Both the position numbers and the translations under genes were made by a program. From a virus, in the IMG/VR virus record IMGVR_UViG_3300035199_000042, positions 1 to 26,448 of that record: a DNA stretch of 26,448 nucleotides. The stretch is one strand, 5' to 3'. Positions 5,829 to 26,271 of this stretch are shown here, piece by piece (within the stretch, counting starts at the first letter, position 1; the number at the start of each line of letters is the position of its first letter). The notes beneath the pieces are model-generated. The model made no database searches and was not told the origin of the DNA. It saw nothing but the letters and a program-made list of their open reading frames with translations.

Positions 5829-6470
5829 TCAGCCCTGCTGCTGCTGTGGCTGCGCCATCTGCAATGGCTGGGTGTTCATCAACGGGGCGTTCTTCTTCAT
5901 GGGATTCAAACGATCTGTTGATTGGTCCTTCAGGATCTTCTCTTGCTGATAGAACGCATCAGCCTGCGGGCTACCCTGGAGGCGTCGTTGCATGTCCAGT
6001 GCTGCCGTCGTGACGATGTTGGCCTTGAGAAGGTCAGGTAATGTTTCCCAACTCAACTTTCGGACAACATCCAATGTGACGGCCCCTGAGATTTCAGTAC
6101 CAGCATCTGCATCGTAGGTCTTGGGATCTCCGTCTGTGGTACGTCGAAGTGTTAGGGTTCGATGGCCATCGGCTCCGGCCCCTTGGATGAATACGACGAA
6201 TCCGGCAGTTTCGCTGATTGAACTTGCGTCTGACACAGCCTCGGCCATGGTTGTGTTGCACGGCCAGCCCTGAGCCTGGACGCGGGTGTTTGCACGCTCC
6301 AGGAAGCGCAGTGCGCGTTCATGGATCATGGTCCCCGCTGGGTCCTCTGGTGCTGTTGTCACCGGGAACTCACCAATGGATTCAAGAATCTCGTTGATGT
6401 CGTTTATGTAGTCAGCAGATGCCGCTGCTGAATATGTGGTGCTGTTGAATATCCTGTCTGTCATGGCCAT
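5829..6470 (-). CDS. Tail tubular protein A (T7 gp11-like), canonical copy
   Basis: A 213-residue protein, close to T7 gp11 (196 residues). The N-terminal part has the family pattern INEILESIGEFPV followed by ALRFLERANTRVQAQGW. The C-terminal part has LSWETLPDLLKANI and a helix containing MQRRLQGSPQADAF, equivalent to the 'lp...k.yi..raAr.fq...~gs' region. The protein forms the ring between portal and nozzle. The last 20 residues are Gln/Met-rich (QPLQMAQPQQQQG). It overlaps the upstream paralogue by 10 bases and is followed 5 bases later by tail tubular B. It has a second, larger homologue immediately upstream, which is unusual. Confidence 0.9.
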   Translation of the reverse strand: MAMTDRIFNSTTYSAAASADYINDINEILESIGEFPVTTAPEDPAGTMIHERALRFLERANTRVQAQGWPCNTTMAEAVSDASSISETAGFVVFIQGAGADGHRTLTLRRTTDGDPKTYDADAGTEISGAVTLDVVRKLSWETLPDLLKANIVTTAALDMQRRLQGSPQADAFYQQEKILKDQSTDRLNPMKKNAPLMNTQPLQMAQPQQQQG

Positions 6471-7345
6471 AGCGGGTTAGTCCTTCTGGTTGTGTACCGT
6501 GATCTGCCCCTGATCGCGGCGGCTTCATAAGTGTTGAGCAGGTTTACATCATCCTGTCGAGTTTGCGCCCGTCGCATACTTGCATCTGATTTCATCATCT
6601 CCATGCTGAGTGCTGCGTCGGCGTTTGTGTTGTTCAGGAATGCACGGTTGAAGTAGTAGGCCGTACATGCCGTCAGGTATTCCACGAATGGTTGTGGGAT
6701 CTCAGTCCAATCCACCTCATATATATAGGTGACTTTCATGTCCCCGCCGTGGATATCCTCGTTATCGTCCTGGTCATAGAGGTATTCCCCCTGCCGGACG
6801 ACGTTGATTGATGCGTCTGATCCCCAGGTGTCTACATGATAAATCTTGTAGAGTCCGGTTGAGGTGCCCCCGCTGGTCCATGTTGTGTACCCAGTGGAGT
6901 TGACCCCATCCAGGCTGTAGGTGGTGTCCGTGAGATACTTTACGGTGTAATACCTATCGTTCACTTCTGTCATGCCAGCCACCGAGGCGATATAAACCCG
7001 ATCCCCGGTCTGTAGTTTGTGGTTTGTCGATGTTGTTACGACAGCGGGGTTGGCCTCGCTGATGCCACTGATGTTGACAGCGGCCTTCGTTTCCAGCCGA
7101 CCCACCTCGGCTTTGTTGTTGCCGTCTAGGGTGATGTCAACACCCCACTTGATGTTGAAATACCACCCCTCACCAAGAAGTATGTCTGTCTTGCTGTTCA
7201 ACATCCGCTCAACATGGGATGCTGTTGAGGTACTGTTTGGTCCATCCACCGTAGCCTCGTTCGGATTAGTGGTGCTGTTTTGGGCCTGATCGTTTTTGCC
7301 CAGCCGGTTGAGGATGTCGTTGATGATCCGATGCTTTTGTGACAT
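6461..7345 (-). CDS. Second tail tubular A-like protein carrying an FCCH-like beta insertion
   Basis: A 294-residue protein that looks like a divergent tail tubular A. The N-terminal helix region (IINDILNRLGKND, then HVERMLNSKTDILLGEGWYF) and a C-terminal helical part (EIPQPFVEYLTACTAYYF, then MRRAQTRQDDVNLLN) fit the family. Between them, at about residues 92-163, lies a beta-rich insertion. Its pattern, 'NPAVVTTS..H.L.tGDrVyI..V.GMTEvNdr.YtV', resembles the FCCH domain first named in ubiquitin-activating enzymes and often seen in phage tail proteins. The ATG at 7345 overlaps the stop of the 33-residue membrane gene by one base (TGATG), indicating coupled translation. It could form a second ring, mix with the 213-residue copy, or act as an adaptor. 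The membership is my reading of motifs; the function is inferred. Confidence 0.82.
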   Translation of the reverse strand: MSQKHRIINDILNRLGKNDQAQNSTTNPNEATVDGPNSTSTASHVERMLNSKTDILLGEGWYFNIKWGVDITLDGNNKAEVGRLETKAAVNISGISEANPAVVTTSTNHKLQTGDRVYIASVAGMTEVNDRYYTVKYLTDTTYSLDGVNSTGYTTWTSGGTSTGLYKIYHVDTWGSDASINVVRQGEYLYDQDDNEDIHGGDMKVTYIYEVDWTEIPQPFVEYLTACTAYYFNRAFLNNTNADAALSMEMMKSDASMRRAQTRQDDVNLLNTYEAAAIRGRSRYTTRRTNPLWP

Positions 7346-11918: not shown

Positions 11919-13085
11919 TCAGGAATAAACCCCAACATACCCAGCGGTCCATGGGCAGAGGATATCTGCACCGACCATCATTTGGGCTTTGAGGAATCGG
12001 GTGTTGCGCCGTTCGTCATCTTCAATTACCGCGCGCAGCCCTGCTGCCTGGACGAGTCCCAGTGCAGCCGAACCTTCGCTTGCACCACACAGCGCAACCG
12101 CTGCGGGCTTGGCGTTGGACTCAGCCTGGTTCTCGGCGTAGGCACCACCACCACCACTCGCGTCGTCACCGTTGTCACGACCGTCGAAGTGGCCGACGTA
12201 CTTGGCGGCAGCCGCCAACTGGCCGGTTGCAGCGGTCTGGAACGTCGTATCAGCGGTCGGCAGGTGATTCGTGAGAATCACATTGAAGCCTTCCATCATT
12301 CCCAAGATGCGACGGTTCAGATCCCACGGCGCACTGTTCTGATCGCGGCTGTAGGGGTTTCCGGCGGGGCCATCAACCGAACCGACGTTTGACCAACCAG
12401 TACCCTCATGTCGCATGATGGTCCTGATATATGGCGGTACGAACAGGTAACGGCCTTCCTCGGGCACATTGTCCTCATCGAACAACTGCGCCAACTCGGC
12501 CACATCGTCACGGAACCGACTAGAACCAACACTGGTGTTGGGGTAAGCCAACGTCAGGTCAGCAGCGTCGGTTGCGCTGGTTGCGCCATCGTCACGGATG
12601 ATGGCTTTGCCACCACCATGGATGTTCGCGGCTGGTGCTGTTCGTGCGGCCTGGATAGCCAACACGGCCAACTTCTTGTCCATATCGATAGCCAACGCGC
12701 GGCCCAATTTTGTGGCAAACGGTTGCAATACGTCAAAATGCGCGATGTCCATATCAGCGAACGGCACATCCACATGCGATACGAGAACGTCATCGACTCG
12801 GACGACGCCTTCCGTCATGGCAATGGATTGACCCAGGAGTTGGTGTCCAGGGTCGTGGTAAATAGGATCGACTCCCGTGTCATCACCGATGATTGGCCAC
12901 TGGGCTTCGTGCCCTTGACCATTGAGCATCTTGGATGCGAGAATGTTTCCAGTGTTATCCCAGAACACGGTCTTGCTGCGAAAAGCCTCGTAGACAGTGC
13001 CTGAAAAGATTTTTAGAGCGAGATCACGGTTTGTGTCTGCGCCCTCTGGGTCCGTAAGAAAACGGACTGGGCTTGATGCTGTCAT
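11919..13085 (-). CDS. Major capsid protein (T7 gp10-like)
   Basis: A 388-residue protein in the T7 gp10 position, after portal and scaffold. Family-like segments are the N-terminal 'ALKIFSGTVYEAFRSKTVF' part, the GHEAQWPIIGDD region (E-loop area), and VDDVLVSHVDVPFADMDIAH followed by the spine helix containing LGRALAIDMDKKLAVL. It forms the icosahedral shell with the HK97 fold. It is a little longer than T7 gp10A (345 residues). The ATG at 13085 has a strong AGGAGGG ribosome site and a 108-base leader, consistent with high expression. The gene ends TCC TGA T and the +1 frame stays open into the next gene; see findings. Confidence 0.9.
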   Translation of the reverse strand: MTASSPVRFLTDPEGADTNRDLALKIFSGTVYEAFRSKTVFWDNTGNILASKMLNGQGHEAQWPIIGDDTGVDPIYHDPGHQLLGQSIAMTEGVVRVDDVLVSHVDVPFADMDIAHFDVLQPFATKLGRALAIDMDKKLAVLAIQAARTAPAANIHGGGKAIIRDDGATSATDAADLTLAYPNTSVGSSRFRDDVAELAQLFDEDNVPEEGRYLFVPPYIRTIMRHEGTGWSNVGSVDGPAGNPYSRDQNSAPWDLNRRILGMMEGFNVILTNHLPTADTTFQTAATGQLAAAAKYVGHFDGRDNGDDASGGGGAYAENQAESNAKPAAVALCGASEGSAALGLVQAAGLRAVIEDDERRNTRFLKAQMMVGADILCPWTAGYVGVYS

Positions 13086-13193: not shown

Positions 13194-13610
13194 CTATTTG
13201 GTTTCTGTCTCTGTGTCTGTTGAAGTGGCTGGCGAACGTCGCCGCCTCTTCTTCTTTTTCCTACCCGAATCAATAGAAGCGTCCTCCATAAACTGGGTAG
13301 GTTTAGATGATCCATCCCCTTCTTTGAGATTTTCCAACTTGGATTCCAGGTCGGCAATCTTTTGGGTCTGGTTCATGTTTTCTTCTGCAATTTCAGCGGA
13401 GGTTTTGGGTGCCGCCTTTGCGCCTGCTGTTTCCAGTGCATTGTCAAGTGCGGCGTGTGCTGTTCTTCCTGTGCCTCCATGCCACACATTCTTGGTGGAT
13501 ATATCCATCAGTGCACAGTGGCACTTTTGGTTTGACCAGGTGTATTTACAGGTGCTACCAATGGCGTTCAGTTTCTCCCACTGGTCTGGTCTTGGTTGGA
13601 ATACTCCCAT
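13194..13610 (-). CDS. Unknown protein between scaffold and capsid, coiled coil and basic tail
   Basis: A 138-residue protein. The N-terminal 65 residues form a small domain with two nearby cysteines (KCHC) and an alanine-rich helix (HAALDNALETAG). A predicted coiled coil follows at about 75-98 (EENMNQTQKIADLESKLENL), then a basic cluster, GRKKKKRRRRS, and a Thr/Glu-rich end. I chose ATG 13610, which overlaps the scaffold stop by one base (TGATG) and sits 7 bases after AAGGAG. A GTG three bases earlier is possible. T7 has no gene here. Its place and the coiled coil suggest a capsid assembly or decoration partner, but this is inference. Confidence 0.72.
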   Translation of the reverse strand: MGVFQPRPDQWEKLNAIGSTCKYTWSNQKCHCALMDISTKNVWHGGTGRTAHAALDNALETAGAKAAPKTSAEIAEENMNQTQKIADLESKLENLKEGDGSSKPTQFMEDASIDSGRKKKKRRRRSPATSTDTETETK

Positions 13611-14473
13611 CACTCAACTCCTTCCAGCAGGTGCTGGGGTGTCTTGGCCAAGCGGGCCTTGTGTTCTGCTGTTACGCCAGTTTCACGCATCTGGGTAAAC
13701 GCACCCAAGACTTCTTGGACTGTGTTATACCCCTCAACACCTGGCGGTGGTGCTTGTGTTTGTGTGCCAGCCAACGGCTGTGCTGCCTCTGAACCAGTGG
13801 AGGATCGGTGGTCATACAAAACCTCTTTGATCGCACTCTCATAGGTCCTGGGATCGGCTAGGCGTTGGTTGAGGGAGTTGGTCTCCCCCTCATTGTAGTG
13901 ACTCGCGGCCCATTCCATCACTGTTGTTAGTTGCTCTTGTCCGCCAGCCATTTCAGTGGCCTGGCTTTTCATTCGGTCTTGGATAGACTGTTGTTCTTGG
14001 GCAACCGCATATTGTCCGGTGATAAACGTGTCAACCACATCCTTGCTGTACCCCTGGGCGCGGAAGGCGTCGTATTGTTCAGGCGTCAGGCTGAAGGATT
14101 CCTCCCAACTCTTACGAATCTCCGACATATCCAAACCAGTGGCTTCAAGAACAGCCTGGATATCACGGTCGCCTTGCATCTCATTTTCCCATGCCGGGCT
14201 GGCTGGTTGCTGCTGAGATAGTTCTGTGATTTTCCGTTGTGCCTCTTCGTATGCGTTGACAAGTTGGTCCACATTGTCGTACTTGCCCGCAAGTTTCTGC
14301 TCGGCAGCGGCCTCATTGGTGATCTCCCTCTCTTCCTCAAGCGTGGGGAAGGACGCCTCAGCAGCGGTAGGTCCGACAATCTCCACGTTGTCGGGAGGGG
14401 TTGGGAGTTGCATGGCTGCCGGTTCGCTTTGCGGCGGCGGCGGGCTGAGTTGTGTTTCATTCGATTCACTCAT
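13610..14473 (-). CDS. Capsid assembly scaffolding protein (T7 gp9-like)
   Basis: A 287-residue acidic protein with a disordered, Pro/Glu-rich N-terminus (residues 1-60). A 'KYDNVDQLVNAYEEAQRKI' segment near 65-83 is the usual 'GKyk~~eeLekAY~elqkki' signature of T7-type scaffolds, and helix-rich sequence with many Gln residues follows. T7 gp9 is about 307 residues. The scaffold copolymerises with capsid protein and leaves the head before DNA packaging. The ATG overlaps the portal stop by 4 bases (ATGA). Position between portal and capsid agrees. Confidence 0.87.
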   Translation of the reverse strand: MSESNETQLSPPPPQSEPAAMQLPTPPDNVEIVGPTAAEASFPTLEEEREITNEAAAEQKLAGKYDNVDQLVNAYEEAQRKITELSQQQPASPAWENEMQGDRDIQAVLEATGLDMSEIRKSWEESFSLTPEQYDAFRAQGYSKDVVDTFITGQYAVAQEQQSIQDRMKSQATEMAGGQEQLTTVMEWAASHYNEGETNSLNQRLADPRTYESAIKEVLYDHRSSTGSEAAQPLAGTQTQAPPPGVEGYNTVQEVLGAFTQMRETGVTAEHKARLAKTPQHLLEGVE

Positions 14474-16083
14474 TGTACCGTTTCCTCCTGGGTCATTTCG
14501 TTCATCATCGACTGTTCAGCGGCATTTCCTAGAACATCGACACCCTTCTGTTGTGCCTGCTGCATCATTGCCTGTTGTTGTGCAGCCTGTTGTTCTTCTT
14601 GTATTTGTTCTGGGGTCTTGATTAGACCCGGCTCATACACACCAGCGTATCGCATCGTAAGGTCAATGAGTGTGTCTATGTTGATTCGTTGCATGAACTC
14701 AGGTCCGAACTGCCCCAGCATTTGGAATGCACCCATCATCTTCTGGGCGTCTGCTGCGTGGCTCAGGGCTGCGATTCCGGTAACAGCCTCAATATCCACA
14801 CTCTCATCCGGCATGGGTGGAAGCAGTTTATCTCTTGTCATCTGATACCTGAGCCGGTCTACCAATGGGATCTGTTGACTGTCACTGATTGCCCCGAATG
14901 CCCCGGCCAGGGCTTGGTCTAACTCTGTGGCAACCCGACTCACCTGGTATGCGGTTACTCGTTCTCCTGTGGGTGTTGATTCACCCTCCATCAGCATCGT
15001 TGTGGCTAGGTCTTTACGGATACTATCCCTGGTCATAACAACAGTGTTGAAGTCTTGCATCTTGTCAACACGCAGGACTCCGACATCCATGATCTGACCA
15101 GACTGAACCCGTGCGTTGATGACGGACCCCGATGTCTGCGCCAACTCACCATCTCGTACCTGGCTGTTGTAATCCTTGGCGAACAACATCTTCGATGACA
15201 TCGCCGCGAAGTCCAATAGGCTCATGGTCAGTTCGTTCATGGACCGAACATCACCCAGGTTCAACTCAACTATCCCACGACCATAGTGTTCTGTTGGTGC
15301 CAACTCATAGGGTGTGGCAAAGAATGGTGACAATGGTTCCTCGGATTCAACGATTGTCTTGTTCTTCAACTCTTGTCGGATCAGCCACTTGTTGGTTTGT
15401 GGTTGCCACTCAGCCAGGGTGTACAGATCCTCCATCCGATCTGATGTGTCCTTGCCAAACAGATCCACCTCACTATACCCCGCCAACGCACGTTGTTTAT
15501 CCGTGAGTGTTAGTGGGTCCACCCGTTCTTTGACGATGTGGAACATGATGGCACCAGAGGAGTCACGTTGTGTAACGTACTGGTCTCGGCGGAACACTTT
15601 GATCCGGTAGTCATCCGTCAACTGCTCAAGAACATCACCTGTTATGAGTAGTTGGCTGATGGCCGCCCGCTTGCGTGACCTAAATCCATTCCGAGTGCCT
15701 CGGTTTACGGCGGTGGGCTTGGTGGCCTCCAGTGTTGACATCATCGCCATCTCATGCAGGAACAACATCTGCTCAAATGCCTGGATGGCCATCGGGTCAA
15801 CCGCTGGGTTGTATTTGAACTCCTGGCTAGGCTTCAGTTTGAAAAACGGAATGCCGACAGGGAACAACGCCAAGAGTAACTTGCCCTCAAGGTTGTTGAC
15901 ACCCCTACTGGCAAGGCTACTAAAAGGCTCGGGCAACTTCTGGTTATCGTCGTGCCCCTTGGGTGGCAGCACCCATGGTTTTGTTAGTGCTGCGCAGAAT
16001 CTTGCTCGGCTCAGGATTTCCCACCGCTTGGTGTCTTCGGCTCGCCAACGCGCGGCGATTGTTTTATCTGTGCCACTAATCAT
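14470..16083 (-). CDS. Portal / head-to-tail connector protein (T7 gp8-like)
   Basis: A 537-residue protein, the same size as T7 gp8 (536 residues). Diagnostic segments are RGVNNLEGKLLLALFPVGIP (residues about 60-79), TPYELAPTEHYGRGIVELNL and the following 'GDVRSMNELTMSLLDFAAMS' helix near the middle, and a Gln-rich C-terminus (EEQQAAQQQAMMQQAQQ). It forms the twelve-subunit ring at the special head vertex through which DNA is packaged and ejected, and docks tail tubular A. It starts 3 bases after the stop of the proline-rich gene and overlaps the scaffold gene by 4 bases. Confidence 0.95.
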   Translation of the reverse strand: MISGTDKTIAARWRAEDTKRWEILSRARFCAALTKPWVLPPKGHDDNQKLPEPFSSLASRGVNNLEGKLLLALFPVGIPFFKLKPSQEFKYNPAVDPMAIQAFEQMLFLHEMAMMSTLEATKPTAVNRGTRNGFRSRKRAAISQLLITGDVLEQLTDDYRIKVFRRDQYVTQRDSSGAIMFHIVKERVDPLTLTDKQRALAGYSEVDLFGKDTSDRMEDLYTLAEWQPQTNKWLIRQELKNKTIVESEEPLSPFFATPYELAPTEHYGRGIVELNLGDVRSMNELTMSLLDFAAMSSKMLFAKDYNSQVRDGELAQTSGSVINARVQSGQIMDVGVLRVDKMQDFNTVVMTRDSIRKDLATTMLMEGESTPTGERVTAYQVSRVATELDQALAGAFGAISDSQQIPLVDRLRYQMTRDKLLPPMPDESVDIEAVTGIAALSHAADAQKMMGAFQMLGQFGPEFMQRINIDTLIDLTMRYAGVYEPGLIKTPEQIQEEQQAAQQQAMMQQAQQKGVDVLGNAAEQSMMNEMTQEETVQ

Positions 16084-16086
16084 AGA

Positions 16087-16380
16087 TCAAGCCAGCCCGC
16101 CGCCACCATAGGGTCCAACACCCTCTTGTGGTCGAGGGATTACCAATGCTGATGCGGATCCCTTTCGTCTTCTGCGTTGCTTCGCCTCAAGTTTTGTCAG
16201 CCCATGAACCTCAAATGGTTCGACCGCGGCCTTGGGTGGTGGGGGTGGGGGTGGTGGTGAGCCACCGCCGCCACTCTTCCCCATGAACACAGCCAAGACT
16301 GTCTCGGTAACGGGCTGTGGTTTTGGGCTGTTGACACCAACTAATGCTGGTACCAGCCGTTCAAATAAGTGGTCCAGCAT
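16087..16380 (-). CDS. Small protein before the portal, polyproline linker and basic motif
   Basis: A 97-residue protein starting MLDHLFERLVPALVGV at ATG 16380, overlapping the end of the GNAT-like gene by 20 bases. Upstream in-frame Met codons (up to 16473) would lie deep inside the GNAT gene and look like shadow sequence. A GGGGS stretch and eight consecutive prolines (about residues 40-52) link the N-terminal helix to a C-terminal 'LEAKQRRRRKGSASALVIPR' segment. A similar basic 'RRRrGraStil' motif is known from small phage proteins near portal genes. The function of that family is unknown to me; a head-assembly or portal-related role is inferred from position. Confidence 0.68.
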   Translation of the reverse strand: MLDHLFERLVPALVGVNSPKPQPVTETVLAVFMGKSGGGGSPPPPPPPPKAAVEPFEVHGLTKLEAKQRRRRKGSASALVIPRPQEGVGPYGGGGLA

Positions 16381-16831
16381 GTCGGTATTCCTTCGGTAAG
16401 TGTTTGCAATCTTCTCTGAGGCAACCCCAGATACCCTGATCGACAACAGTGCCATCAGGTAATTTCCAGCCACGCCTAACCACGCCTTCTTTCTTGAAGT
16501 ACATGGCAGCCATTAGCCTCTCCATTCGCTTGTGTCCATCAATAACTACGGCGGTGATCCGCTCACACCCCATCCATATGAGTGCGTATTGATGACAGTA
16601 TTGGTAGAAGGAGCGATGGACGTAGGCTGGATTTGTAATCGCTAGGTGTAGTGTTACATTGTTGCCATCGAAGTCAGTAAATATCATCCCACCAACGAGG
16701 TCGCCGTCTGGGTTCTCAACCCCAACCGCTTGGAAGTCTTCGCCGGGATCACCATACCCATCTGGTCGGTATGCTTTTGGTCCGACCCAATCCCCCACCC
16801 TCTTGGGGTCGTCAAGTATCAGGCGAGACAT
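16361..16831 (-). CDS. GNAT-like acetyltransferase-family protein
   Basis: A 156-residue protein with the outline of a short GNAT fold: strands at 'DFQAVGVENPDGDLVGGMIF' and 'NVTLHLAI', a helix with 'VHRSFYQYCHQYALIW', then 'CERITAVVIDGHKRMERLMA' and 'YFKKEGVVRR', the usual 'i.a.v...n....~l~.klGF..eg~~r' ending. Similar short GNAT-like proteins are often found just upstream of the portal in T7-like marine phages, where they may be structural rather than catalytic. The classical acetyl-CoA loop (Q/RxxGxG/A) is not clear. It overlaps the upstream small gene by 20 bases. Confidence 0.68.
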   Translation of the reverse strand: MSRLILDDPKRVGDWVGPKAYRPDGYGDPGEDFQAVGVENPDGDLVGGMIFTDFDGNNVTLHLAITNPAYVHRSFYQYCHQYALIWMGCERITAVVIDGHKRMERLMAAMYFKKEGVVRRGWKLPDGTVVDQGIWGCLREDCKHLPKEYRHAGPLI

Positions 16832-17458: not shown

Positions 17459-19891
17459 CTAGGCGAAGAAGTAGGGTGATGATAGGACATCCTCCAACAC
17501 CAGTGACCCTGGGGCTGGTGGGTGGGGTAGGTCCAGCCCCGGATATAGGTCGGACCACTCATCCCATAACTTATCCAACAGGCTACACTTATGTAGCCCA
17601 ACAAACTCCTCCCGTAGTATGACACCAAGGCGATCCATCTTGTTGGCATGGGACCAATAACTATCGTGGACTGCCCCAAATGCAATGTCCTCATCATGGC
17701 ACCTTGAGCCAGTGAGAAACATATGGGACCCATCCCAGGAGTGGACGATGTTGGGGGGTAGGCCCAGCACCTGTCGGCTCGGGCTGACCTTCACATTCTC
17801 TTTCCGGTAGGCGAGTGTCACCCGCTGGAGGCATGTCTTGATGGTGCATTTGCCGTAGTTTTTGTATGGTTGAACGACCGGCATACCTATTGGGTTCGTC
17901 CATCGGAGGGGTTGGTATGGTTTGTATGCCACCATCAACTTGCCACAAGTATCAAACCACTCAAATACCTCTGATGCCTTACCACATAGAGACCCTATTG
18001 AGGCAAGTATCTCACCCGATATGTATTGTCCCATCCTAAATAACTGGCCCCTTGGCACACCCAAATCCTTCAGTTCATCTATGACCTGGAGCCGGGCACC
18101 AACTCTTGTAAGGCCATACCACCGGGTCATGCAGGGCCTCTTGACTAGGGATCGGCACAGTAGGGGCATGGTTGCTAACGCAAGGGGGGCACCGGCATCC
18201 GCGTCCAGGCCCACCCTGTGCGTGAGTACATCCAACACATCCAGGTACATATCTTCTGGTGTTTCAGATGGGACCAGGTTGACAGCCCGACCACCCTTCT
18301 CACACCTGCCCGCTGCGCTCAGGTGTTGGAGTCCATTCATCGACCCATCGACCTGGACTGGGAGCATGGCACCTATAGTTTCAGGGTGCCCCAATCCCAT
18401 GCACGCAGCCAGGAATTGTGGTGGGTCATCGGCGTCCATCCATTCGGTGTTCTTGTATGGGCTGTGGGCTATGTCTTGGATCATCTCTATATTTTCATCA
18501 ACCCAATCAGCCCTGGCATCTAGTGGTTGCTTGTCCAACCCAAACATATTTCCGGCATGAACCTTCAACCAATACCAACCCCGCTCATCCAGTGGTTCAT
18601 CAGTACCAAAGCACAACATCGACCTCGCCACTGAATCATTTTGCGCATGCAAGTAGAGGGGTATGGGGTACGCTCGACCACGAAAACAAATCTGATGGCA
18701 CAGCCAGAACTTATCCTCTTGGGTCATCCGCCGAGCCAACCCAATCTTGTGCATAAACTCAACGCGCTGGCCCCGCAACTTGTTGTTGTGGGTATGAACC
18801 TCATGGGCATCGGACTTCCAATCCTTCAGGGCTTGCTCATTGGTATCAATATCATCCGGCTTGGGTGGCATCAACCTGTTTTCTCTGGTTGGTATACCGC
18901 CAACACCACCACCCGAATCCCAAAACTTCTCTAACACATCAACGACCAGTGGGTTGGCCCTCCATGACTGTGAGTTTAGTTTGTTGAGGTGGTCATATAA
19001 CTCACCACTGCGTGGTGCCGCAGCCAGGGCAACCTCTTGTTCTGGTGTCGGCTTAGATATGAGTGGTGTGCGAACCTTTAGGTATCCCCCTTCGTGATCC
19101 TTACTCCATGCAAGCGGCGGCATGAGCATGGGTTGGTACCTGGGTCTTAGGTGTTCCCGTATTGAGTGGCCACCCTCAATGATTCTGAACACCTCATCAT
19201 CCATGCGGATGACGCCCTTCTTTTGGTTGTCCCTCCACTGCTTCTCATGGTGGAAGGCTAGTTTGAAATCTTTGGTGTATGGCTGGGTGGATGCCGAGCC
19301 GATGACGCACCACATCAACTTGGTACCTAGTTGTATGCAAACCTTCCTGTTCCATAGGTTCTGGGTCAGTGTCTTCTTGGCCCACCAGTTGATGCGCTGG
19401 GTGTTGAGCCGCTTGAACTTCCGATCCAACTCCCTGATGCTGGCCCGCTCATTAGCCTTGAGTAGATCCATATGAATCTCTGCTATCACTGATGATCCAA
19501 TGGCGTATGACATGCGGGGTATCAAGTCACCAGATGGTTCCGACATGCACCTACCCATCATTTGGTGCAGGGTTATCAATGCCATCCGGTCGGCGTCCAA
19601 GCACTGGATCACTGGGCCATAGAGTCCACGCCCTGGTGCAGGCTCACCCGCCGAAACCAAACAAACCTCATCCTTGATCGCCTCAACCAATGGCTCAAAC
19701 CAATGGACCAACATACGTTCGCATGGCTTGAGGCCAGCGGCATCACCACGTTCCACTGCCTCTAGTGCGAGCCGTCGATACCTGGCTGCGCCTCGACTGA
19801 TCGCTTCTGTTTCTGTTTCCGCCTGCCTCTCCAGTATTGATCCGGCGAGTACACCACCAACACTAGCCTTTGGTCGGGTCGATAGTCTCAT
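17459..19891 (-). CDS. Single-subunit DNA-dependent RNA polymerase (T7 gp1 type)
   Basis: An 810-residue polymerase, shorter than T7 gp1 (883 residues). Catalytic aspartate D515 lies in 'VDGSMNGLQHLSA', followed by GGRAVNLVPSETPEDMY, nearly as in T7. K584 and Y592 lie in 'LVKRPCMTRWYG' (T7 K631/Y639). The second catalytic aspartate D743 is in 'VHDSYWSH' (T7 D812). The protein ends PYFFA, like the essential FAFA 'foot' of T7. The D515-K584 interval is about 25 residues shorter than in T7. It transcribes the virion genes from phage promoters. Start ATG 19891 overlaps the nuclease gene by 29 bases. Its place, after replication genes and before virion genes, is phiKMV-like. Confidence 0.97.
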   Translation of the reverse strand: MRLSTRPKASVGGVLAGSILERQAETETEAISRGAARYRRLALEAVERGDAAGLKPCERMLVHWFEPLVEAIKDEVCLVSAGEPAPGRGLYGPVIQCLDADRMALITLHQMMGRCMSEPSGDLIPRMSYAIGSSVIAEIHMDLLKANERASIRELDRKFKRLNTQRINWWAKKTLTQNLWNRKVCIQLGTKLMWCVIGSASTQPYTKDFKLAFHHEKQWRDNQKKGVIRMDDEVFRIIEGGHSIREHLRPRYQPMLMPPLAWSKDHEGGYLKVRTPLISKPTPEQEVALAAAPRSGELYDHLNKLNSQSWRANPLVVDVLEKFWDSGGGVGGIPTRENRLMPPKPDDIDTNEQALKDWKSDAHEVHTHNNKLRGQRVEFMHKIGLARRMTQEDKFWLCHQICFRGRAYPIPLYLHAQNDSVARSMLCFGTDEPLDERGWYWLKVHAGNMFGLDKQPLDARADWVDENIEMIQDIAHSPYKNTEWMDADDPPQFLAACMGLGHPETIGAMLPVQVDGSMNGLQHLSAAGRCEKGGRAVNLVPSETPEDMYLDVLDVLTHRVGLDADAGAPLALATMPLLCRSLVKRPCMTRWYGLTRVGARLQVIDELKDLGVPRGQLFRMGQYISGEILASIGSLCGKASEVFEWFDTCGKLMVAYKPYQPLRWTNPIGMPVVQPYKNYGKCTIKTCLQRVTLAYRKENVKVSPSRQVLGLPPNIVHSWDGSHMFLTGSRCHDEDIAFGAVHDSYWSHANKMDRLGVILREEFVGLHKCSLLDKLWDEWSDLYPGLDLPHPPAPGSLVLEDVLSSPYFFA

Positions 19892-20228
19892 ATACCTTGA
19901 ATCCCTTGCCTGACTTTTTGACTAGGTGTAGTTCTTGCCGCCCATATTCTCGCCATAGTTTTTTATCCCGCTTGAACTTCGCTGTCTCAACACCCTTCAC
20001 ATCGACGTACCAACACACACCACACTCACTCACCACAAAAAAATCTGGAACATAAACATTCAACGGCACCCCCAGCCATAGCCTGGGTTGCTCAATGTAT
20101 TCAACAATTTCCCCCAGTTCTCGCAGTTGCCACAGCACCTGCGCGTACTCCATCTCTGCCTTGGAACCGTATGTTCTACCGTTCCATCTTCGATCAGCCG
20201 CTGGGCTAACCCGATACTTTCCAGCCAT
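19863..20228 (-). CDS. DUF1064-type PD-(D/E)XK nuclease, Holliday-junction resolvase-like
   Basis: A 121-residue protein. The catalytic core is visible: E25 in 'YGSKAEMEYA', P61-D62 in 'VYVPDFFV', and D76-x-K78 in 'WYVDVKGVET'. This is the PD-(D/E)XK arrangement of the small phage DUF1064/resolvase-like family, which often follows primase genes. It probably cuts branched DNA during replication and packaging, the job of endonuclease I (gp3) in T7. It overlaps the primase gene by 23 bases and the polymerase gene by 29 bases. No residue of the core is missing. Confidence 0.85.
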   Translation of the reverse strand: MAGKYRVSPAADRRWNGRTYGSKAEMEYAQVLWQLRELGEIVEYIEQPRLWLGVPLNVYVPDFFVVSECGVCWYVDVKGVETAKFKRDKKLWREYGRQELHLVKKSGKGFKVYETIDPTKG

Positions 20229-21072
20229 CCGTGGCCTCCGAACGTGCGTTGTCGATCACCAAGTCAATGACATCCTTGGTTGCTCCTGAGACTATCCACT
20301 CACGGGCATCCTTACCCTTCAGTGGCTCAATTATCTTCACGGTTGGGCATACTTTTACCAGGTGCCCGGCTAACTCAGCCGCACCTATTCTGCCAGGGCT
20401 GTCTTTGTCTGACACCACCACCACTGGGTGTTCTTTGCAGTATGTAACGGCGTGTTGAATTGCACCCCGACATGATGGCCGACCAATGGCGTGGTACCCC
20501 TGGCTGTGTAGGTGCATGGTGTCCGATGGGCCTTCCGCAATCACGATCATCTCATCAGATCCCTTGACTGGTGACGGGAGGAACAACCCCTCCCTGCTGC
20601 CACGGATCGCATACTTCCCACCATCACGCTTGCGTAGCCTGAACCCAACAATCTTTCCTTGGCTGTCTCGCATGGGGAAGGTGTAGGCGAAGTGCCCATC
20701 TGACCACCCCACCTGCATCTCACCCACAGTCACGGCATCTATATCCAGTGCATCACACAACCAATCAAGGTTCGGTGGCATGGATGATCGGAACCTGGCG
20801 TGGATGCGTGTCCAGTTGATGGTGGTTGCTGCGACCCTTTTGATTCGTGGCTTACGCTCACTTGTGACATGGATAGACTGGCCCGCTGGCCAATAATGAA
20901 CCCCACCATTACTGTCCACTCTCAACCGGCGAAGGCCAGTCGTATCCATGTCATCTGTATGCCCCTTGGCCTCGGCCATGCAGCACACCCTTCCTTGGTC
21001 AGTGAATCCACACCACCTGATGGCACCACACACTTGGCATGGGCTACTACTTGAGCATCGCCGCCAACTCAT
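20206..21072 (-). CDS. DNA primase with zinc finger and Toprim domain, no helicase domain
   Basis: A 288-residue primase. Cysteines at 12, 15, 21, 30 and 31 near the N-terminus make a zinc-finger candidate (CQVCG... and RVCC). A middle region (about 85-160) with 'FAYTFPMRDSQGKIVGFRLR' is the usual 'l.~Pmrd..G.ivGfr.R' primase core. The Toprim domain follows: E180 in 'IAEGPSDT' and D222/D224 in 'VVVSDKDSPG'. It makes RNA primers at the fork. Unlike T7 gp4 it ends before any DnaB-like helicase domain; the only helicase nearby is the SF2 protein. It starts with an ATGA overlap on the preceding gene. Confidence 0.9.
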   Translation of the reverse strand: MSWRRCSSSSPCQVCGAIRWCGFTDQGRVCCMAEAKGHTDDMDTTGLRRLRVDSNGGVHYWPAGQSIHVTSERKPRIKRVAATTINWTRIHARFRSSMPPNLDWLCDALDIDAVTVGEMQVGWSDGHFAYTFPMRDSQGKIVGFRLRKRDGGKYAIRGSREGLFLPSPVKGSDEMIVIAEGPSDTMHLHSQGYHAIGRPSCRGAIQHAVTYCKEHPVVVVSDKDSPGRIGAAELAGHLVKVCPTVKIIEPLKGKDAREWIVSGATKDVIDLVIDNARSEATDGWKVSG

Positions 21073-21332
21073 GGCAGGTCATCCAGAATAAACGGTGTGC
21101 CAAGGCCAACGGCCAGGCACATGATGTTATGTGTGTACCAATCCAGTGACTCATCCTCATCCATGCCCTGCTCACGCAGGCACATAATTATCTTGTACCC
21201 ACTGTATACCAGGACAGGTGATGAACCCCACTGTTGTCCCACACCCAAGATAGCCAGGTCGAGACCATCAAACCTCACCGCCTCTGGGTTTGAGTCTGCC
21301 AGGTAGTCGATCATGCGCATGAGTTCCTTCAT
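21069..21332 (-). CDS. Small unknown protein between helicase and primase
   Basis: An 87-residue acidic protein. I choose ATG 21332 because GGAGGAGG lies 5 bases upstream and the codon overlaps the helicase stop (ATGA). An ATG at 21347 five codons earlier lacks such a site. The sequence 'VRFDGLDLAILGVGQQWG' followed by 'ESLDWYTHNIMCLAVG' fits a small family common in phages, with a 'yDG~d.Ai~G~g..~' start and a 'eA.e~~~~N~~~a~~G..TP~~~' end, also seen here in 'GLGTPFILDD'. The function of the family is not known to me. Its place between helicase and primase suggests a replication accessory role. Confidence 0.72.
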   Translation of the reverse strand: MKELMRMIDYLADSNPEAVRFDGLDLAILGVGQQWGSSPVLVYSGYKIIMCLREQGMDEDESLDWYTHNIMCLAVGLGTPFILDDLP

Positions 21333-22972
21333 GCTGGCCTCCTCCACCCATTGGCTTTGATCTTGTCAATGAGTGCGCTGGCCTGTGCCTTGGTGTAGTT
21401 GTTTCCATACCCATACTTGCGTAGTAGTTGGGCCTGCTTCACTGTGCATAACCCTTCACGGTGTCGTTGAACGATGGTCGCACATAACTTCTTCGCCTCG
21501 TTGTACGTCAGACCATCAGGATCCACCCCACTTTTGAGAAGTAATCCCTCCATCTTCTCGCTGAGTGGCTGGTCGTATATGTTGCCATCCACTGGTGGTG
21601 TGATATCCAGTGCGTCGAATGGGTTGATGTTTCTTGATGAGTATTTGACCTTGGCCCTAAGCCGGGATCTCTTGGCGACGGCTCGCTTCCGCTGCTCCTC
21701 CCGCTCCAGGCGAATCTCCTCATCCGCCTGCTCCAAGGATTGTTCGATGTCCTGGGCGTGGCCCGCCGTCCTAGCGGCGTTCTCTTTAGCGCGATCCCTA
21801 ACATCCTGTGGATACCGACCACCCAGAACATCGAAGGCCGAGCATAACTTATGCCTGCCTGCGTTGCCTGAGAAGTCGAGGATTTCTAGGGTGGGTTTGT
21901 TTGATTGAGCGATGGCTGCCGTCCTCGCATCCGCCAGGTCTGGCACATCATCAACAACACCAGGCAGTGGGCGTGTGCCCCGTCCAATCATCTGCATCCA
22001 CAGTGGTGTGGACTTGGTTGGCCTGGCCATGACAATCAGTTCCACACCTGGGTCATCGAACCCCTCAGTGAGGCAGCCAACATTCACCATGATCTCAAAC
22101 TCTTTGTTGGCATACCCCACGATTAGGTCTCGTCGCTCTTGCTTGGGCGTCTTGCCGCATATCCACCTGGCACAATCCCGATGACGATTCAGAATCTCAC
22201 ACATCCGCTCGGCACACTTGACTGATGGAACAAACATCAACGCCTTGCGTCCAGCCGCCATCTCCAGGGTGGGTGTGGCTATGGCATGGAGATGGTGTTC
22301 ATTCTCCATCACATCGGCAAGGTCTTTGCTGTTCAGGTCTCCGGCTGTTGTCCTGATCGCTGAGTAGTCGAGGCCCTGGACCTCCACCATCCGCTGTCTA
22401 ATGGGCACCAGCCAACCATCGGTGATGGCTTGCTCTAGTGTGTATTCATATGCGACCGCACCGAACCACTCACCCATCGCAAGTTTGTCATGCCTGTTGG
22501 GTGTGGCTGTCACACCTAGCACCTTGAGTTTGGGATTCCCCTTGAACCAATCGAGTACCCGCTGCCAAGACTTGGCACCCAGGTGGTGGGCCTCATCGAA
22601 TACCAACAGGCTGAAGTCATAGGGGCTGAACTTTGTCATCCTTCCCTTGCCACCCATGCCTGCGATCAGGGTCTGGACACTGGCGACAATGACTTTGGAT
22701 TGGTGGAACTGCATGGTGTCCACGCTACGCTCGGCCATCTCAATCTCAGGCGGGGATCCTGTGATGGTTGTGATCTTTGCTGCCGCCTGGTCAACCAACT
22801 CCTCCCGGTGAGCGACAACCATCACCCGTCCATGCTGGGCCATGTCGGCCAGGTGTGAGAACACAATGGTCTTGCCGGTGCCCGTTGGCAGCACCAGTAG
22901 TGATGACTGGTGGTGCTTGAATGATTCACACACAGCCTGGATGGCATCAACCTGGTATGGCCGTGGCTTCAC
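21329..22972 (-). CDS. Superfamily 2 DEAH-box helicase (RadD/type III-res-like)
   Basis: A 547-residue SF2 helicase. Motif I is LPTGTGKT (28-35), motif II is DEAH (126-129), motif III is VTATP (154-158) and motif VI is QMIGRGTR (327-334), so both RecA-like domains are complete. A charged helical stretch (about 400-450) is followed by a C-terminal domain. Its last part, 'KQAQLLRKYGYG...TKAQASALIDKI', matches a small module found at the end of phage helicases and related proteins. It probably unwinds or remodels DNA during replication or recombination. The start is GTG at 22972, overlapping the previous stop (GTGA); the helicase motif 'RPYQ' begins at residue 4, so no later start is credible. 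Confidence 0.93.
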   Translation of the reverse strand: MKPRPYQVDAIQAVCESFKHHQSSLLVLPTGTGKTIVFSHLADMAQHGRVMVVAHREELVDQAAAKITTITGSPPEIEMAERSVDTMQFHQSKVIVASVQTLIAGMGGKGRMTKFSPYDFSLLVFDEAHHLGAKSWQRVLDWFKGNPKLKVLGVTATPNRHDKLAMGEWFGAVAYEYTLEQAITDGWLVPIRQRMVEVQGLDYSAIRTTAGDLNSKDLADVMENEHHLHAIATPTLEMAAGRKALMFVPSVKCAERMCEILNRHRDCARWICGKTPKQERRDLIVGYANKEFEIMVNVGCLTEGFDDPGVELIVMARPTKSTPLWMQMIGRGTRPLPGVVDDVPDLADARTAAIAQSNKPTLEILDFSGNAGRHKLCSAFDVLGGRYPQDVRDRAKENAARTAGHAQDIEQSLEQADEEIRLEREEQRKRAVAKRSRLRAKVKYSSRNINPFDALDITPPVDGNIYDQPLSEKMEGLLLKSGVDPDGLTYNEAKKLCATIVQRHREGLCTVKQAQLLRKYGYGNNYTKAQASALIDKIKANGWRRPA

Positions 22973-23643
22973 AGCCGCTCATCCCTGTTATCAATCAAGG
23001 CTTGGTTGACCTGCCCGGTTCCGTTGCAGTGCTGACAACCACCTGGCTTTGCTCCACAGTGGGGGCAGTCATGTTCAAGTATGCCCCAAGCCATAGCGGA
23101 AGTAAGTGCCAGGTATGCCGCTCGGATGCGGGGCCACGCCTTTTTCACCATGTAATACTTCGGATCTTTCAGTTGCTTGGCCATAAAATCAACAGCACTG
23201 CGGACATCGGCTTCACACATGCCAATCTCCATGCCCATTGTGATCTCTGGCTCATCGGCTTCATCAGGTGGTGGTTTCCTTTCCTCCTTGATGCGCTTGG
23301 CTGTCAACTTCCCCCCATCTCGATCAATTTTTTCCAGGATATTTTCAGCCTGAACTACCGTGGTGCCGGTGAGTGCCCTTGCCTGCGACTCATTCAACTC
23401 AACACCAGGCAGCATGTCAACAACCTTTGCTGCCTCCATGAACTGATAGATCCGGCGGGCTGACTGCCCGAACTCTTGCAGGACAAACTCAGCCCAGGTC
23501 TCATACTCCTCACGCCAGAGTTTGCGTGCCCTGATTTCCTCTGCCGCCCTGGCTGCTTCATACCAAGCGTCGAGGCCCTGGTGGATGATGGATTTCAGGT
23601 GTTCATAGTCGTCGGTGTTGTTTAGTTGAATCTGCCGTGGCAT
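22969..23643 (-). CDS. ParB/KorB-like helical DNA-binding protein with C-terminal zinc knuckle
   Basis: A 224-residue protein. Residues 20-95 show the pattern 'A..EIRARKLWREEYETWAEFV...G.SARRIYQFMEAAKVVDML....LNESQARAL', typical of phage and plasmid proteins annotated as ParB- or KorB-like, where this helical region binds DNA. A charged linker (about 110-135) follows. Near the C-terminus, C193, C196, C203 and C206 (CPHC...CQHC) form a DnaJ-like zinc knuckle. Its place before the helicase suggests origin or helicase recruitment. The ATG at 23643 has an AGGAG site 7 bases upstream. It overlaps the helicase by 4 bases. DNA binding is inferred from the family resemblance. Confidence 0.75.
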   Translation of the reverse strand: MPRQIQLNNTDDYEHLKSIIHQGLDAWYEAARAAEEIRARKLWREEYETWAEFVLQEFGQSARRIYQFMEAAKVVDMLPGVELNESQARALTGTTVVQAENILEKIDRDGGKLTAKRIKEERKPPPDEADEPEITMGMEIGMCEADVRSAVDFMAKQLKDPKYYMVKKAWPRIRAAYLALTSAMAWGILEHDCPHCGAKPGGCQHCNGTGQVNQALIDNRDERL

Positions 23644-23653
23644 GGATTCACTC

Positions 23654-23722
23654 CTAGCAGTACATAATGGGTGTGAGGCCCATGATTATGATGAGTCGAT
23701 CCCAGTAGAGGGCCGCAGCCAT
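23654..23722 (-). CDS. Possible 22-residue hydrophobic peptide
   Basis: A tiny frame in the 84-base gap between the Gp157-like and ParB-like genes: MAAALYWDRLIIIMGLTPIM and two more residues. It is hydrophobic enough for one short membrane span, and its stop overlaps the ribosome site of the next gene. There is no clear ribosome site before its own ATG, so it may be chance. I list it because the operon is otherwise packed and the gap is unusually long. Confidence 0.22.
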   Translation of the reverse strand: MAAALYWDRLIIIMGLTPIMYC

Positions 23723-23727
23723 GTGCA

Positions 23728-24246
23728 TTACTTGACTCTCAGGTGTGTGCCCCGTTCCAGGAGAACAGCGAAGTCCAGGTCGGCACCCGCCTCCAGGTCA
23801 TGTCGGATCTTGTCTTTGTCGATGGTGGTCACAACCTCGGTTGCCTGGTACATCTTGGGCACCCCATCCGGGTCAATATCCATTGGTATCTTGCCGCCAT
23901 TCTTTGTGACCGCCACCCTGAAGTGATCGGTCTCCACCTTGTCGATGCCACGGTTCTCAAAGACCCACAGCAGGCGGTCCTTCAACCCCTTCGCTGCGTT
24001 CTTGTTGACCTGTGCCCTCTCCTTCAGGCGGTCAGCCTCAGCCATCATGGCTGCTGCCCTGGCCTCCTTCTCTTTCATCAGCCAGCAATAGTTCTCCACC
24101 TTGGATTGAAGGTCGGCCTCCAACTCCTCACTCCAGGCCAGGATTGATTCGTCAACCTCGGGGTCAGTGACATCACCACCCACCTTGTCGAGCAGGTCAC
24201 CGAGTGCCAGCATGTCATCTGTTATGTCAAAGATTGTGCGTGCCAT
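23728..24246 (-). CDS. Gp157-like phage protein
   Basis: A 172-residue protein with the layout of the Siphovirus Gp157 family. It has an acidic N-terminal helix, a long coiled-coil middle (about 40-95, with 'ENYCWLMKEKEARAAAM' and 'AEADRLKERAQ'), then 'LKDRLLWVFENRGIDKVET' leading to a beta hairpin, 'FRVAVTKNGGKIPMDI', and a 'VPKMYQATEVVTTIDKDKI' tail, matching the usual 'P.ey......~DK..i...lk'. The family lies next to single-strand annealing or SSB genes in many siphoviruses. One streptococcal member was linked to phage resistance when expressed in the host, but the molecular job is unknown. Its ATG overlaps the annealing gene stop by one base. Confidence 0.85.
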   Translation of the reverse strand: MARTIFDITDDMLALGDLLDKVGGDVTDPEVDESILAWSEELEADLQSKVENYCWLMKEKEARAAAMMAEADRLKERAQVNKNAAKGLKDRLLWVFENRGIDKVETDHFRVAVTKNGGKIPMDIDPDGVPKMYQATEVVTTIDKDKIRHDLEAGADLDFAVLLERGTHLRVK

Positions 24247-25034
24247 CAGAATGGGATCTCCTCATCTGCGATAGCGTCCACCTCAATGGAGCAGACCGTC
24301 ATCTCTTTGATTTCACAGTCGCCCCACCTGTTGGCGGCCAGGTGTGTTGCCTCAACATCAGAGCCTTGGTTGATCGCCGCATTGGCAGCGTCAGCAAAGT
24401 CTCCGCGTAGGCTGGTTAGTTTGGTTGCGTCAGCACAGTGGATGACGTACTTGCTGAACGGCTTGCCGTCAGACTTGCGCTTCAACTCCACCACCTCCAC
24501 CTGGGTGGGTGTGTAGGTGCCTTTGATCTTTCCATCTGGTCCTGCGCTGGCCTGTGATACTGGTGCCTGGATGGGCAGGGCACTGCCGCCCTTGGACCCA
24601 TGCGCCTGCACTGTTGCATGTTGGCTTGGCTGGGTGTTCTGCTGGTGGATGGCGTTCGCCACCTCATCGGCAGTCGCCAGGCTGGTGCCACTGGCATCCC
24701 ATCCGGCGATGCCAAGTGCCCGCCCGATTGCGCTGGTCTCACAGTTCTCAACAGCACTGGTGTTGTTGATCTGGCTGGAGCCTCGGTGTTCCTCGGCGTA
24801 GCCGGAGGCAAGGTGGTTGAGTACCATTGGTGGCTCGCCTGAGTCGTTGATCCGGCTGTAGTCTGGTACCAGGATTGATACATCGGCCTTGCATAGGATG
24901 ATGTCACCGTTGACAGTCATGTCAGTATGGATGCTGCCGTGTGGGTTGGTGTGCCTGAATCGTTTCAGCCTGCTTGCCACGGTCTCATACTGGTTGCCGT
25001 GGATGTTGGTGAACTGTGGTTGTGGTGCAGTCAT
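24246..25034 (-). CDS. Single-strand DNA annealing-like protein with SSB-type acidic tip
   Basis: A 262-residue protein in two parts. Residues 15-125 contain 'YETVASRLKRFR', 'GSIHTDM' and 'SQINNTSAVENCETSAIGRA', the signature of a phage protein family with the 'EN.ETSAiGRAL...Gy' motif that sits in recombination loci. A Gln/Ser-rich linker (about 128-168) leads to a second domain (170-250) with strand-rich sequence compatible with an OB fold. The last six residues are DEEIPF, close to the DDIPF tip by which bacterial SSB recruits partner proteins. A role in coating or annealing single-stranded DNA during phage replication is inferred. A strong AGGAGGAAA site lies upstream, inside the preceding small gene. 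Confidence 0.75.
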   Translation of the reverse strand: MTAPQPQFTNIHGNQYETVASRLKRFRHTNPHGSIHTDMTVNGDIILCKADVSILVPDYSRINDSGEPPMVLNHLASGYAEEHRGSSQINNTSAVENCETSAIGRALGIAGWDASGTSLATADEVANAIHQQNTQPSQHATVQAHGSKGGSALPIQAPVSQASAGPDGKIKGTYTPTQVEVVELKRKSDGKPFSKYVIHCADATKLTSLRGDFADAANAAINQGSDVEATHLAANRWGDCEIKEMTVCSIEVDAIADEEIPF

Positions 25035-25162
25035 TTGCTTTCCTCCTGTGGTGGTGTGCCATAGTGCCAGTTTCCCTCATCATCCATCCACTTGGCGTAC
25101 TCGCCTTGGCCGATGATAACGACTGGGTTCATTGTCTTGGTATCGTCCGAGTCCATGGTCAT
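25031..25162 (-). CDS. 43-residue unknown protein
   Basis: A small acidic frame, MTMDSDDTKTMNPVVIIGQG at the start, with 'YAKWMDDEGNWHYGTPP' later. Its ATG overlaps the stop of the 67-residue gene (ATGA), its stop overlaps the start of the annealing gene (ATGA), and it fills the whole gap between them. The AAAGGA site in the end of the upstream gene sits only 1-2 bases before the ATG, so translation is probably by coupling; an in-frame ATG two codons later (25156) has better spacing. The two 4-base overlaps make it convincing as a gene. It holds several Trp and Tyr residues but no motif I recognise. Confidence 0.8.
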   Translation of the reverse strand: MTMDSDDTKTMNPVVIIGQGEYAKWMDDEGNWHYGTPPQEESK

Positions 25163-25362
25163 TCCTTTAGGTAATCGTCCAGGTCCTCGTCCTCCATGTC
25201 TACGCATACCCTCAGTGCTGTCTCAACTGCTTGGTACATGCTGACATGGCATGGGATGATGCTTCGTGATTCCAGGCGGCGGGCTAGTTCCTTCGCCCAC
25301 TTTGGGGCCGGGCTATCCTCCGGCACCTGGATTGATTTGTATTTGGTTGGTGTTTCTGCCAT
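25159..25362 (-). CDS. 67-residue unknown acidic-tailed protein
   Basis: A 67-residue protein, first gene after the early hairpin. It has a Pro/Lys-rich N-terminus (MAETPTKYKSIQVPEDSPAP), a central helix 'KWAKELARRLESRS', a second helix 'MYQAVETALRVCV' and a strongly acidic end 'DMEDEDLDDYLKE'. The helical middle resembles small dimeric antitoxin or ribbon-helix-helix-type proteins in style ('v.v~~~~~~~l~~la'), but I cannot show it. The ATG has GGAG 10 bases upstream. It overlaps the next gene by 4 bases, so it heads the replication operon. Confidence 0.72.
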   Translation of the reverse strand: MAETPTKYKSIQVPEDSPAPKWAKELARRLESRSIIPCHVSMYQAVETALRVCVDMEDEDLDDYLKE

Positions 25363-25475: not shown

Positions 25476-25859
25476 TCAACTTAGACTCTTTACGAATTGT
25501 TGCAGCATCACCCGTTGCTCTTTGGGTAGTTGTGTGATGTCGTGTGCCAAGACGAGTGCGTCGAGGCAGGCTGTCTGCACTGCATCAGTGGAGGCAACTA
25601 CTACTGCATCCCCCCTGACCGCTGCGTTGTGTCGTCCTCGCTGAGTGGCTTGATTCGCTAGTCGCACAGCGTCGTGGACTTTCTGCTCATCAACACCCAG
25701 TGCCTTTGCTAGGTTCGTCACAAACTTATACCTGGGTGCAGCCCCGTTTCGCCAGCGTTGCACCGTTCCAATCCCGATCTTGCAGCGTCGGGCGATGGTC
25801 GCATCGTTGCGCCCACTGTCGTTGATAAGTTCAACGAGACTTTTTGTTTGACTGCTCAT
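25476..25859 (-). CDS. XRE-like helix-turn-helix regulator
   Basis: A 127-residue protein. Residues 5-60 are an HTH of the Cro/CI (XRE) type: 'SLVELINDSGRNDATIARRC' with recognition helix 'GIGTVQRWRNGAA', then 'FVTNLAKALGVDEQKV'. The C-terminal half is a short helical region, possibly for dimerisation, with no peptidase domain, so it is not a LexA/CI-type cleavable repressor. I start it at ATG 25859 because it shares an AAAGGAACCACGGC leader with the preceding gene; in-frame Met codons at 25886 and 25904 would overlap that gene. It is a good candidate to bind the operator-like dyad over the early promoter, which would make it autoregulatory; this is inference. Confidence 0.82.
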   Translation of the reverse strand: MSSQTKSLVELINDSGRNDATIARRCKIGIGTVQRWRNGAAPRYKFVTNLAKALGVDEQKVHDAVRLANQATQRGRHNAAVRGDAVVVASTDAVQTACLDALVLAHDITQLPKEQRVMLQQFVKSLS

Positions 25860-25878
25860 GCCGTGGTTCCTTTCGTGG

Positions 25879-26271
25879 TCAGTCATTGAGGTCGTACATC
25901 TCACAATCTATCGTTGTGAATGTGATTTCCCCTGGGTCGTACATCTGTAGCCGCTCCGCTGCGACTATCAGTTCTTCATCTAGTTCAATGGTCTCACCTT
26001 TTCGGTTTGACCCGACCAATATCATGTCGCCGTGCATGGACATCACCTCACTCGGCGTCACACCACTGGCCTTGGCTATCCAGTGTCGGGCTGGTTCATT
26101 CATCGGCAGCATGTCCACACGCCCAGTCTCGTTGCCATACAGGCACCAACCTGGCCCACTGGTGACGGCTTCAAAGTACCCGCCTGTCGCACGCTGGATG
26201 TCGAGGTGGCCCCGCACTTCGGTGGTTGATACCACCCCGTTGGTTTGGAATACTATTGCTTTGGCTGTCAT
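25879..26271 (-). CDS. DUF3846-like phage protein
   Basis: A 130-residue protein, first gene of the operon. The pattern 'MTAKAIVFQTNGVVSTTEV' plus 'DIQRATGGYFEAVTSG', 'LPMNEPARHWIAKA' and 'GDMILVGSNRKGETIEL' fits the DUF3846 layout: a short N-terminal strand, '~q..vgG.ie.v', 'N..A......', '~~Gd.v~vg'. It is a small, mostly early phage and plasmid protein whose function is not established. I start at 26271, where AAAGGA lies 8 bases upstream, not at the ATG 26328, because that extension would run through the promoter and operator. It ends 19 bases before the HTH start. Confidence 0.8.
   Translation of the reverse strand: MTAKAIVFQTNGVVSTTEVRGHLDIQRATGGYFEAVTSGPGWCLYGNETGRVDMLPMNEPARHWIAKASGVTPSEVMSMHGDMILVGSNRKGETIELDEELIVAAERLQMYDPGEITFTTIDCEMYDLND

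Follow-up and report, generated by a model that had tools for sequence, protein, structure and literature searches.

A T7-related lineage of uncultured phages with no detectable DNA polymerase probably relies on the host replisome

The phage DNA analysed here appears to come from a deep lineage, mostly with integrases, that has a T7-type RNA polymerase (RNAP) but neither a DNA polymerase nor a replicative hexameric helicase, and in which the host replisome would synthesize the DNA. We give this reading a probability of about 0.72. The stretch examined, called the window below, is the entire IMG/VR record IMGVR_UViG_3300035199_000042, a linear fragment of 26,448 bases. All its main genes, including the module, RNAP, acyltransferase, virion, 67-aa and HTH genes described below, lie on the minus strand. 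It is incomplete; judged from relatives, about 15 kb is absent. No GenBank phage near-identical to the window was found. The sequences establish the gene content, the conserved gene order, the absence of a polymerase from near-complete relatives and the monophyly of the group.

An earlier note on this DNA described T7-type polymerase and virion genes joined to a replication set of another kind, and the first part of that description is borne out. The gene at 17459-19891 encodes a T7-type single-subunit RNAP of 810 aa (phrog_414, E 6e-172) with the catalytic motifs DGS, RWYG and HDS, an assignment that also rests on a tree. Its identity to the closest GenBank phage RNAPs is only 30%. There follow an acyl-CoA N-acyltransferase (16361-16831; phrog_4470), positioned as in phiKMV/Alfirin-type phages, a T7-type portal (14470-16083; phrog_449), a scaffold (13610-14473; phrog_1052), the major capsid protein (11919-13085; phrog_267), tail tubular A-type genes (6461-7345 and 5829-6470; T7-type) and a T7-type tail tubular B gene (3184-5823). 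The small gene upstream of the portal, at 16084-16360, contains a long C-rich run that encodes a proline- or glycine-rich stretch, and relatives carry a similar gene of 76 aa.

Of the features of the Autographiviridae, the single-subunit RNAP is present in the window by family match and motifs, and so are the T7-type portal, capsid and tail tube A and B genes, with the terminase present in relatives. The family-A DNA polymerase is absent from the window and its relatives, and the sole trace of a gp4-type primase-helicase with a DnaB-like domain is a homologue of the primase half. Because the family-A polymerase is missing from both the window and its relatives, the window phage falls in a deep lineage of its own that has the transcription and virion genes of T7, and is not a canonical member of the Autographiviridae. 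The early promoter that had been said to bracket the replication module did not hold up: the stretch from 16 to 26.4 kb has 5 sigma-70-like sites, which is not above the 7.0 +/- 2.7 expected by chance. A repeated-word search for phage promoters of T7 type found no repeated word.

The genes claimed for the replication module at 19863-25034 were all located there by family and structure matches. The module sits ahead of the T7-type RNAP and virion genes and contains no DNA polymerase. Next to the annealing-protein gene, which is discussed below, lies a gene of the Gp157 family (23728-24246, 172 aa; PF05565, 1.7e-32; phrog_253), and the two also adjoin in G005, G006, G015 and G043. The 224-aa product of 22969-23643 is predicted to have a ParB-type helical DNA-binding domain and a C-terminal Cys4 zinc motif (AF2 model; Cys motif in A7). 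The best match of the model (pLDDT 82) is the DNA-binding domain of Spo0J-parS 4umk, with a probability of 0.99 and a weak E of 0.22. There is no Pfam ParB match for this protein, and a ParB_N domain is present in its G043 homologue. The fold match and this domain weakly bear out the ParB-like label given earlier, and the product is a candidate origin-recognition protein.

The gene at 21329-22972 encodes an SF2 helicase of 547 aa (phrog_16; ResIII 1e-31) whose nearest solved structure is RadD. The SF2 core of bacterial RadD aligns with the phage helicase over about 340 residues (E 1.5e-41), whereas the C-terminal third of RadD is unaligned. Residues R21, R49 and R145 of the RadD SSB-Ct pocket have K, Q/H and K as alignment equivalents in the phage helicase. 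Homologues of the phage helicase keep DEAH and motif VI, and used as a query for close relatives it found no loci. A small conserved protein of 92 aa (21069-21347; phrog_13182) occupies the same slot in several relatives. The primase gene (20206-21072, 288 aa; phrog_239, 7e-17) encodes a stand-alone Toprim primase with an N-terminal zinc motif and no helicase domain, and C12, C15, C21, C31, E180, D222 and D224 are its conserved residues. It has no full-length match among 50,697 GenBank phages. Since its profile matches, distantly, the primase half of T7 gp4, the primase seems to have been retained or re-acquired without the gp4 helicase half, which is absent. The description of a non-T7 replication set thus fits the module overall but not this primase, a distant relative of the T7 gp4 primase half. 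The last gene before the RNAP (19863-20228, 121 aa; phrog_190) encodes a DUF1064 protein, resembling PD-(D/E)XK nucleases and resolvases, that keeps the PD-(D/E)XK signature (E25, D62, D76 and K78 conserved).

The annealing-protein gene at 24246-25034 encodes 262 aa (phrog_11717) that an AF2 model divides into an N-terminal annealing domain and an SSB-like OB domain. The N domain of the model is Rad52-like (human RAD52 8rjw, Z 8.8 by VIA-align, 96 residues, 2.8 A); Foldseek matched it to Sak 8pq8 with prob 0.94 and a weak E of 0.085. The C domain is SSB-like (H. pylori SSB, Z 9.0), with a flexible tail that ends DEEIPF. OB-fold matches to toxin B subunits were disregarded, as only the fold is shared. 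Given its modelled fold of Rad52/ERF type, the product is a predicted single-strand annealing protein. In relatives this slot is filled by homologues or by proteins with other N domains, with two N-domain families, phrog_11717 and phrog_19042.

A C-terminal [DE]x[ILMV]PF was found in 6 of the 3,414 ORFs over 24 records, and all 6 are in the annealing-protein slot despite the two N-domain families. G006, G021 and G028 have only a degenerate SSB-type tail or none. It is not a fixed property of phrog_11717, as it was seen in only 5 of the 59 distinct relatives found elsewhere. Nor is it a proof of host dependence: the gp2.5-type SSBs of two phages that encode a polymerase, TRX32-1 (L123 5259-5969) and RHph_I20 (L122 26843-27526), end in DDDIPF and EQIPF, bacterial SSB-type peptides, rather than in the acidic tail of T7, which ends DF. 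The tail is neither specific to polymerase-less phages nor diagnostic of them. In E. coli the SSB-Ct peptide is bound by RadD, PriA, RecQ, RecO and the chi subunit (PMC10238739). An Exonuclease VIII-like gene (phrog_412) lies directly after the slot in G021 (L114 5736-6635), the sole near-complete relative seen with one.

Relatives were sought in IMG/VR with RNAP and primase alignments. A T7-type RNAP was present in 21 of the 50 records tested, and of these G012 alone encodes a family-A polymerase. We built an RNAP tree by a quick method, adding 18 reference phages and G012 to a sample gathered partly via the primase; the 22 rows of the window group, some of them short fragments spanning only part of the module, fell on one side of a branch with an SH-aLRT of 100. 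The stem of this clade is long (0.87), and the G012 RNAP falls outside the clade. When records were scanned with the RNAP only, module genes were found in every record reaching that region, except G012. The gene order, derived with our own profile HMMs over 24 records, is integrase, annealing-protein slot, Gp157 slot, ParB-type protein, SF2 helicase, phrog_13182, Toprim primase, DUF1064 and RNAP, followed by portal, scaffold, capsid, tail tubes, internal virion proteins and terminases. It is kept in all seven complete or near-complete relatives (G006, G013, G015, G017, G021, G028 and G043; 37-42 kb). G028 (40,955 bp) carries a terminal repeat of 77 bp; the two ends of the contig share a single gene between them in each of G013, G015 and G017, and fall in neighbouring genes in G006; and in G021 and G043 all blocks are present, module and terminase included. 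In G043 the SF2 helicase (L118 13418-15081) is split over two overlapping frames of 431 and 125 aa, by a frameshift or an assembly error.

These comparisons suggest that the window belongs to a previously unrecognised, uncultured lineage related to T7. It is highly improbable that the window arose as a mosaic or an assembly artefact, or that its polymerase module was lost recently. The window is a single fragment that mixes T7 morphogenesis with siphophage-type replication genes; however, the same join occurs in some 20 records of wide divergence, the RNAP clade and the module are inherited together, and such an origin is already contradicted because the gene order is conserved.

In the window, the family-A polymerase (PF00476) and DnaB_C profiles found no match, which agrees with the earlier statement that no T7-type polymerase or primase-helicase is encoded there, and no T7-type exonuclease was recognised in the module. 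PF00476, for which the positive controls T7, LUZ100 and TRX32-1 all matched, is also absent from the seven near-complete relatives, as are the DnaB_C and Pol III alpha profiles; G005 has no detectable polymerase or DnaB either. The earlier note had left two options, a polymerase encoded elsewhere in the genome or dependence on the host replisome. The former is contradicted by these relatives. The latter is the better supported of the two because the seven near-complete relatives and G005 have no detectable polymerase or DnaB, and it is from this absence that we infer the probable use of a host DNA polymerase by the window phage.

A DNA polymerase of the lineage's own, hidden among the unassigned genes in a form too divergent for the profiles, seems unlikely. 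Absence judged by profiles is compatible with a very divergent polymerase, family matches are lacking for some large genes, the family-B (PolB_2) search carries no weight as its positive control was silent, and the same option has been left open for the MPP-C phages (PMC9860041). However, every ORF of at least 450 aa in the near-complete genomes either has an assignment or is positioned within the virion block, the one exception being a 1204-aa ORF that only G017 has. The unassigned genes on the replication side are shorter than 400 aa and yielded no shared family; outside the virion block, no unassigned gene is both large and shared. The G017 ORF (L112 9457-13068) is on the strand opposite to all main genes and has no PHROG match.

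T7-like phages without a DNA polymerase are already known. The MPP-C cyanopodoviruses lack the polymerase but retain the primase/helicase, exonuclease and SSB of T7, and use of the host polymerase has been proposed for them (PMC9860041). The window phage is like them in having T7-type virion genes and no DNA polymerase gene, but it has an annealing protein, a RadD-like helicase and a stand-alone primase instead of the T7 primase/helicase, exonuclease and SSB. The MPP-C pattern, in which the polymerase alone is lost, does not describe a module with no DnaB_C match and no recognised T7-type exonuclease. Within the literature searched, replacement of the whole replisome in a T7-like phage is new.

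The temperate T7-like phages LUZ100, TRX32-1, HTVC019P and Pasto, the last two compared over the RNAP region only, share the T7 RNAP and T7 virion genes with the window, and an integrase and lysogeny have been reported for the group. In contrast to the window, LUZ100 and TRX32-1 encode a DNA polymerase, a gp4 primase/helicase, an exonuclease and gp2.5. In Autographiviridae of the phiKMV, Alfirin and RHph_I38 type, the RNAP ends the replication block and is followed by acyltransferase, portal, scaffold and capsid genes, as here, whereas the block itself has a DNA polymerase, an exonuclease and endonuclease VII, to which Alfirin and RHph_I38 add a DnaB-like helicase and a ligase. The RNAPs of this type are outside the window's clade. 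Seven reference phages whose RNAPs are nearest or whose frame is the same (Alfirin, RHph_I38, RHph_I20, TRX32-1, ctgrD200, SI01 and LUZ100) all carry a DNA polymerase, and no SF2 helicase, DUF1064, Gp157 or ParB-type gene was found in them. The phrog_16 helicase of temperate siphophages of Streptococcus and Enterococcus (EFC-1 and Javan phages) is 34-35% identical to that of the window over its full length; to our knowledge, a T7 RNAP is not expected in siphophages of this kind.

The triad of ParB-type protein, SF2 helicase and Toprim primase is not unique to T7-type phages, being present also in about 20 IMG/VR loci without a T7 RNAP (L026, L027, L032, L040, L048 and about 15 further loci). 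Because it recurs in this way, the triad is a portable cassette, widespread and uncultured. RecT/Bet annealing proteins and an exonuclease lie upstream of the triad in the loci without RNAP that were examined, a context that favours annealing as the function of the slot protein.

A tyrosine integrase is encoded by 6 of the 7 near-complete relatives and by G005. In the window, the gene at 25159-25362 encodes a 67-aa protein whose homologue adjoins the integrase gene in most relatives. No integrase is present at 25034-25362, between this gene and the annealing-protein gene, where relatives have it; the integrase of the window phage may lie in the missing DNA. A gene at 25476-25904 encodes a repressor-like HTH regulator, judged from weak HTH matches. 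A phosphoadenosine phosphosulfate reductase-like gene (phrog_424) adjoins the integrase in G006 (L104 9485-10459). With regard to tRNA-based attachment sites, no tRNAs were found in the window or relatives, and a search of 84,980 bacterial and archaeal genomes with the RNAP and primase alignments found no prophage.

In the lytic cycle, the phage module may create single-stranded entry points at which host DnaB and Pol III would then carry out synthesis. The ParB-type protein would mark the origin, the RadD-like helicase and the primase would open and prime the DNA, and the Rad52-fold/OB annealing protein would coat and anneal single strands. Its DEEIPF tail may dock the phage helicase and host SSB-binding proteins, e.g. 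PriA or the Pol III chi subunit. Annealing would yield concatemers, which the DUF1064 nuclease may resolve for the T7-type terminase, and the phage RNAP, the final gene of the block, would then transcribe the virion genes. Unwinding by the phage RadD-like protein is not assured because RadD itself reportedly showed no helicase activity in vitro with branched DNA (PMC8887467).

Host Pol I, or recombination-driven repair synthesis only, might copy the phage DNA in place of a recruited Pol III replisome. The module is recombination-like in its annealing protein, RadD-like helicase and resolvase-like nuclease, and host Pol I has been named as an option for MPP-C (PMC9860041). However, the module has a dedicated primase as well as a ParB-type protein, which suggests that forks assemble at an origin, and no recruiter specific to Pol I was recognised, so that we consider this improbable. 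Use of the host replisome remains our preferred reading. We put forward only tentatively, at somewhat less than even odds, the fuller proposal that a family-level and mostly integrase-bearing lineage has swapped its whole replisome for an annealing-driven system, with host Pol III receiving the phage DNA from a RadD-like helicase and a Rad52-SSB fusion that bears a host-type tail.

DNA polymerase serves as a marker gene in surveys of T7-like phages, and for that reason such surveys would miss this lineage. The lineage shows that the transcription and virion half of a T7-like genome is separable from its replication half, and that the latter can give way to a portable cassette of the recombination type. 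Through the SSB-type tail and the RadD-like helicase, the lineage may offer a natural test case for how phages recruit host replisomes. If our reading is true, these phages would pair a phage RNA polymerase with a host DNA polymerase.
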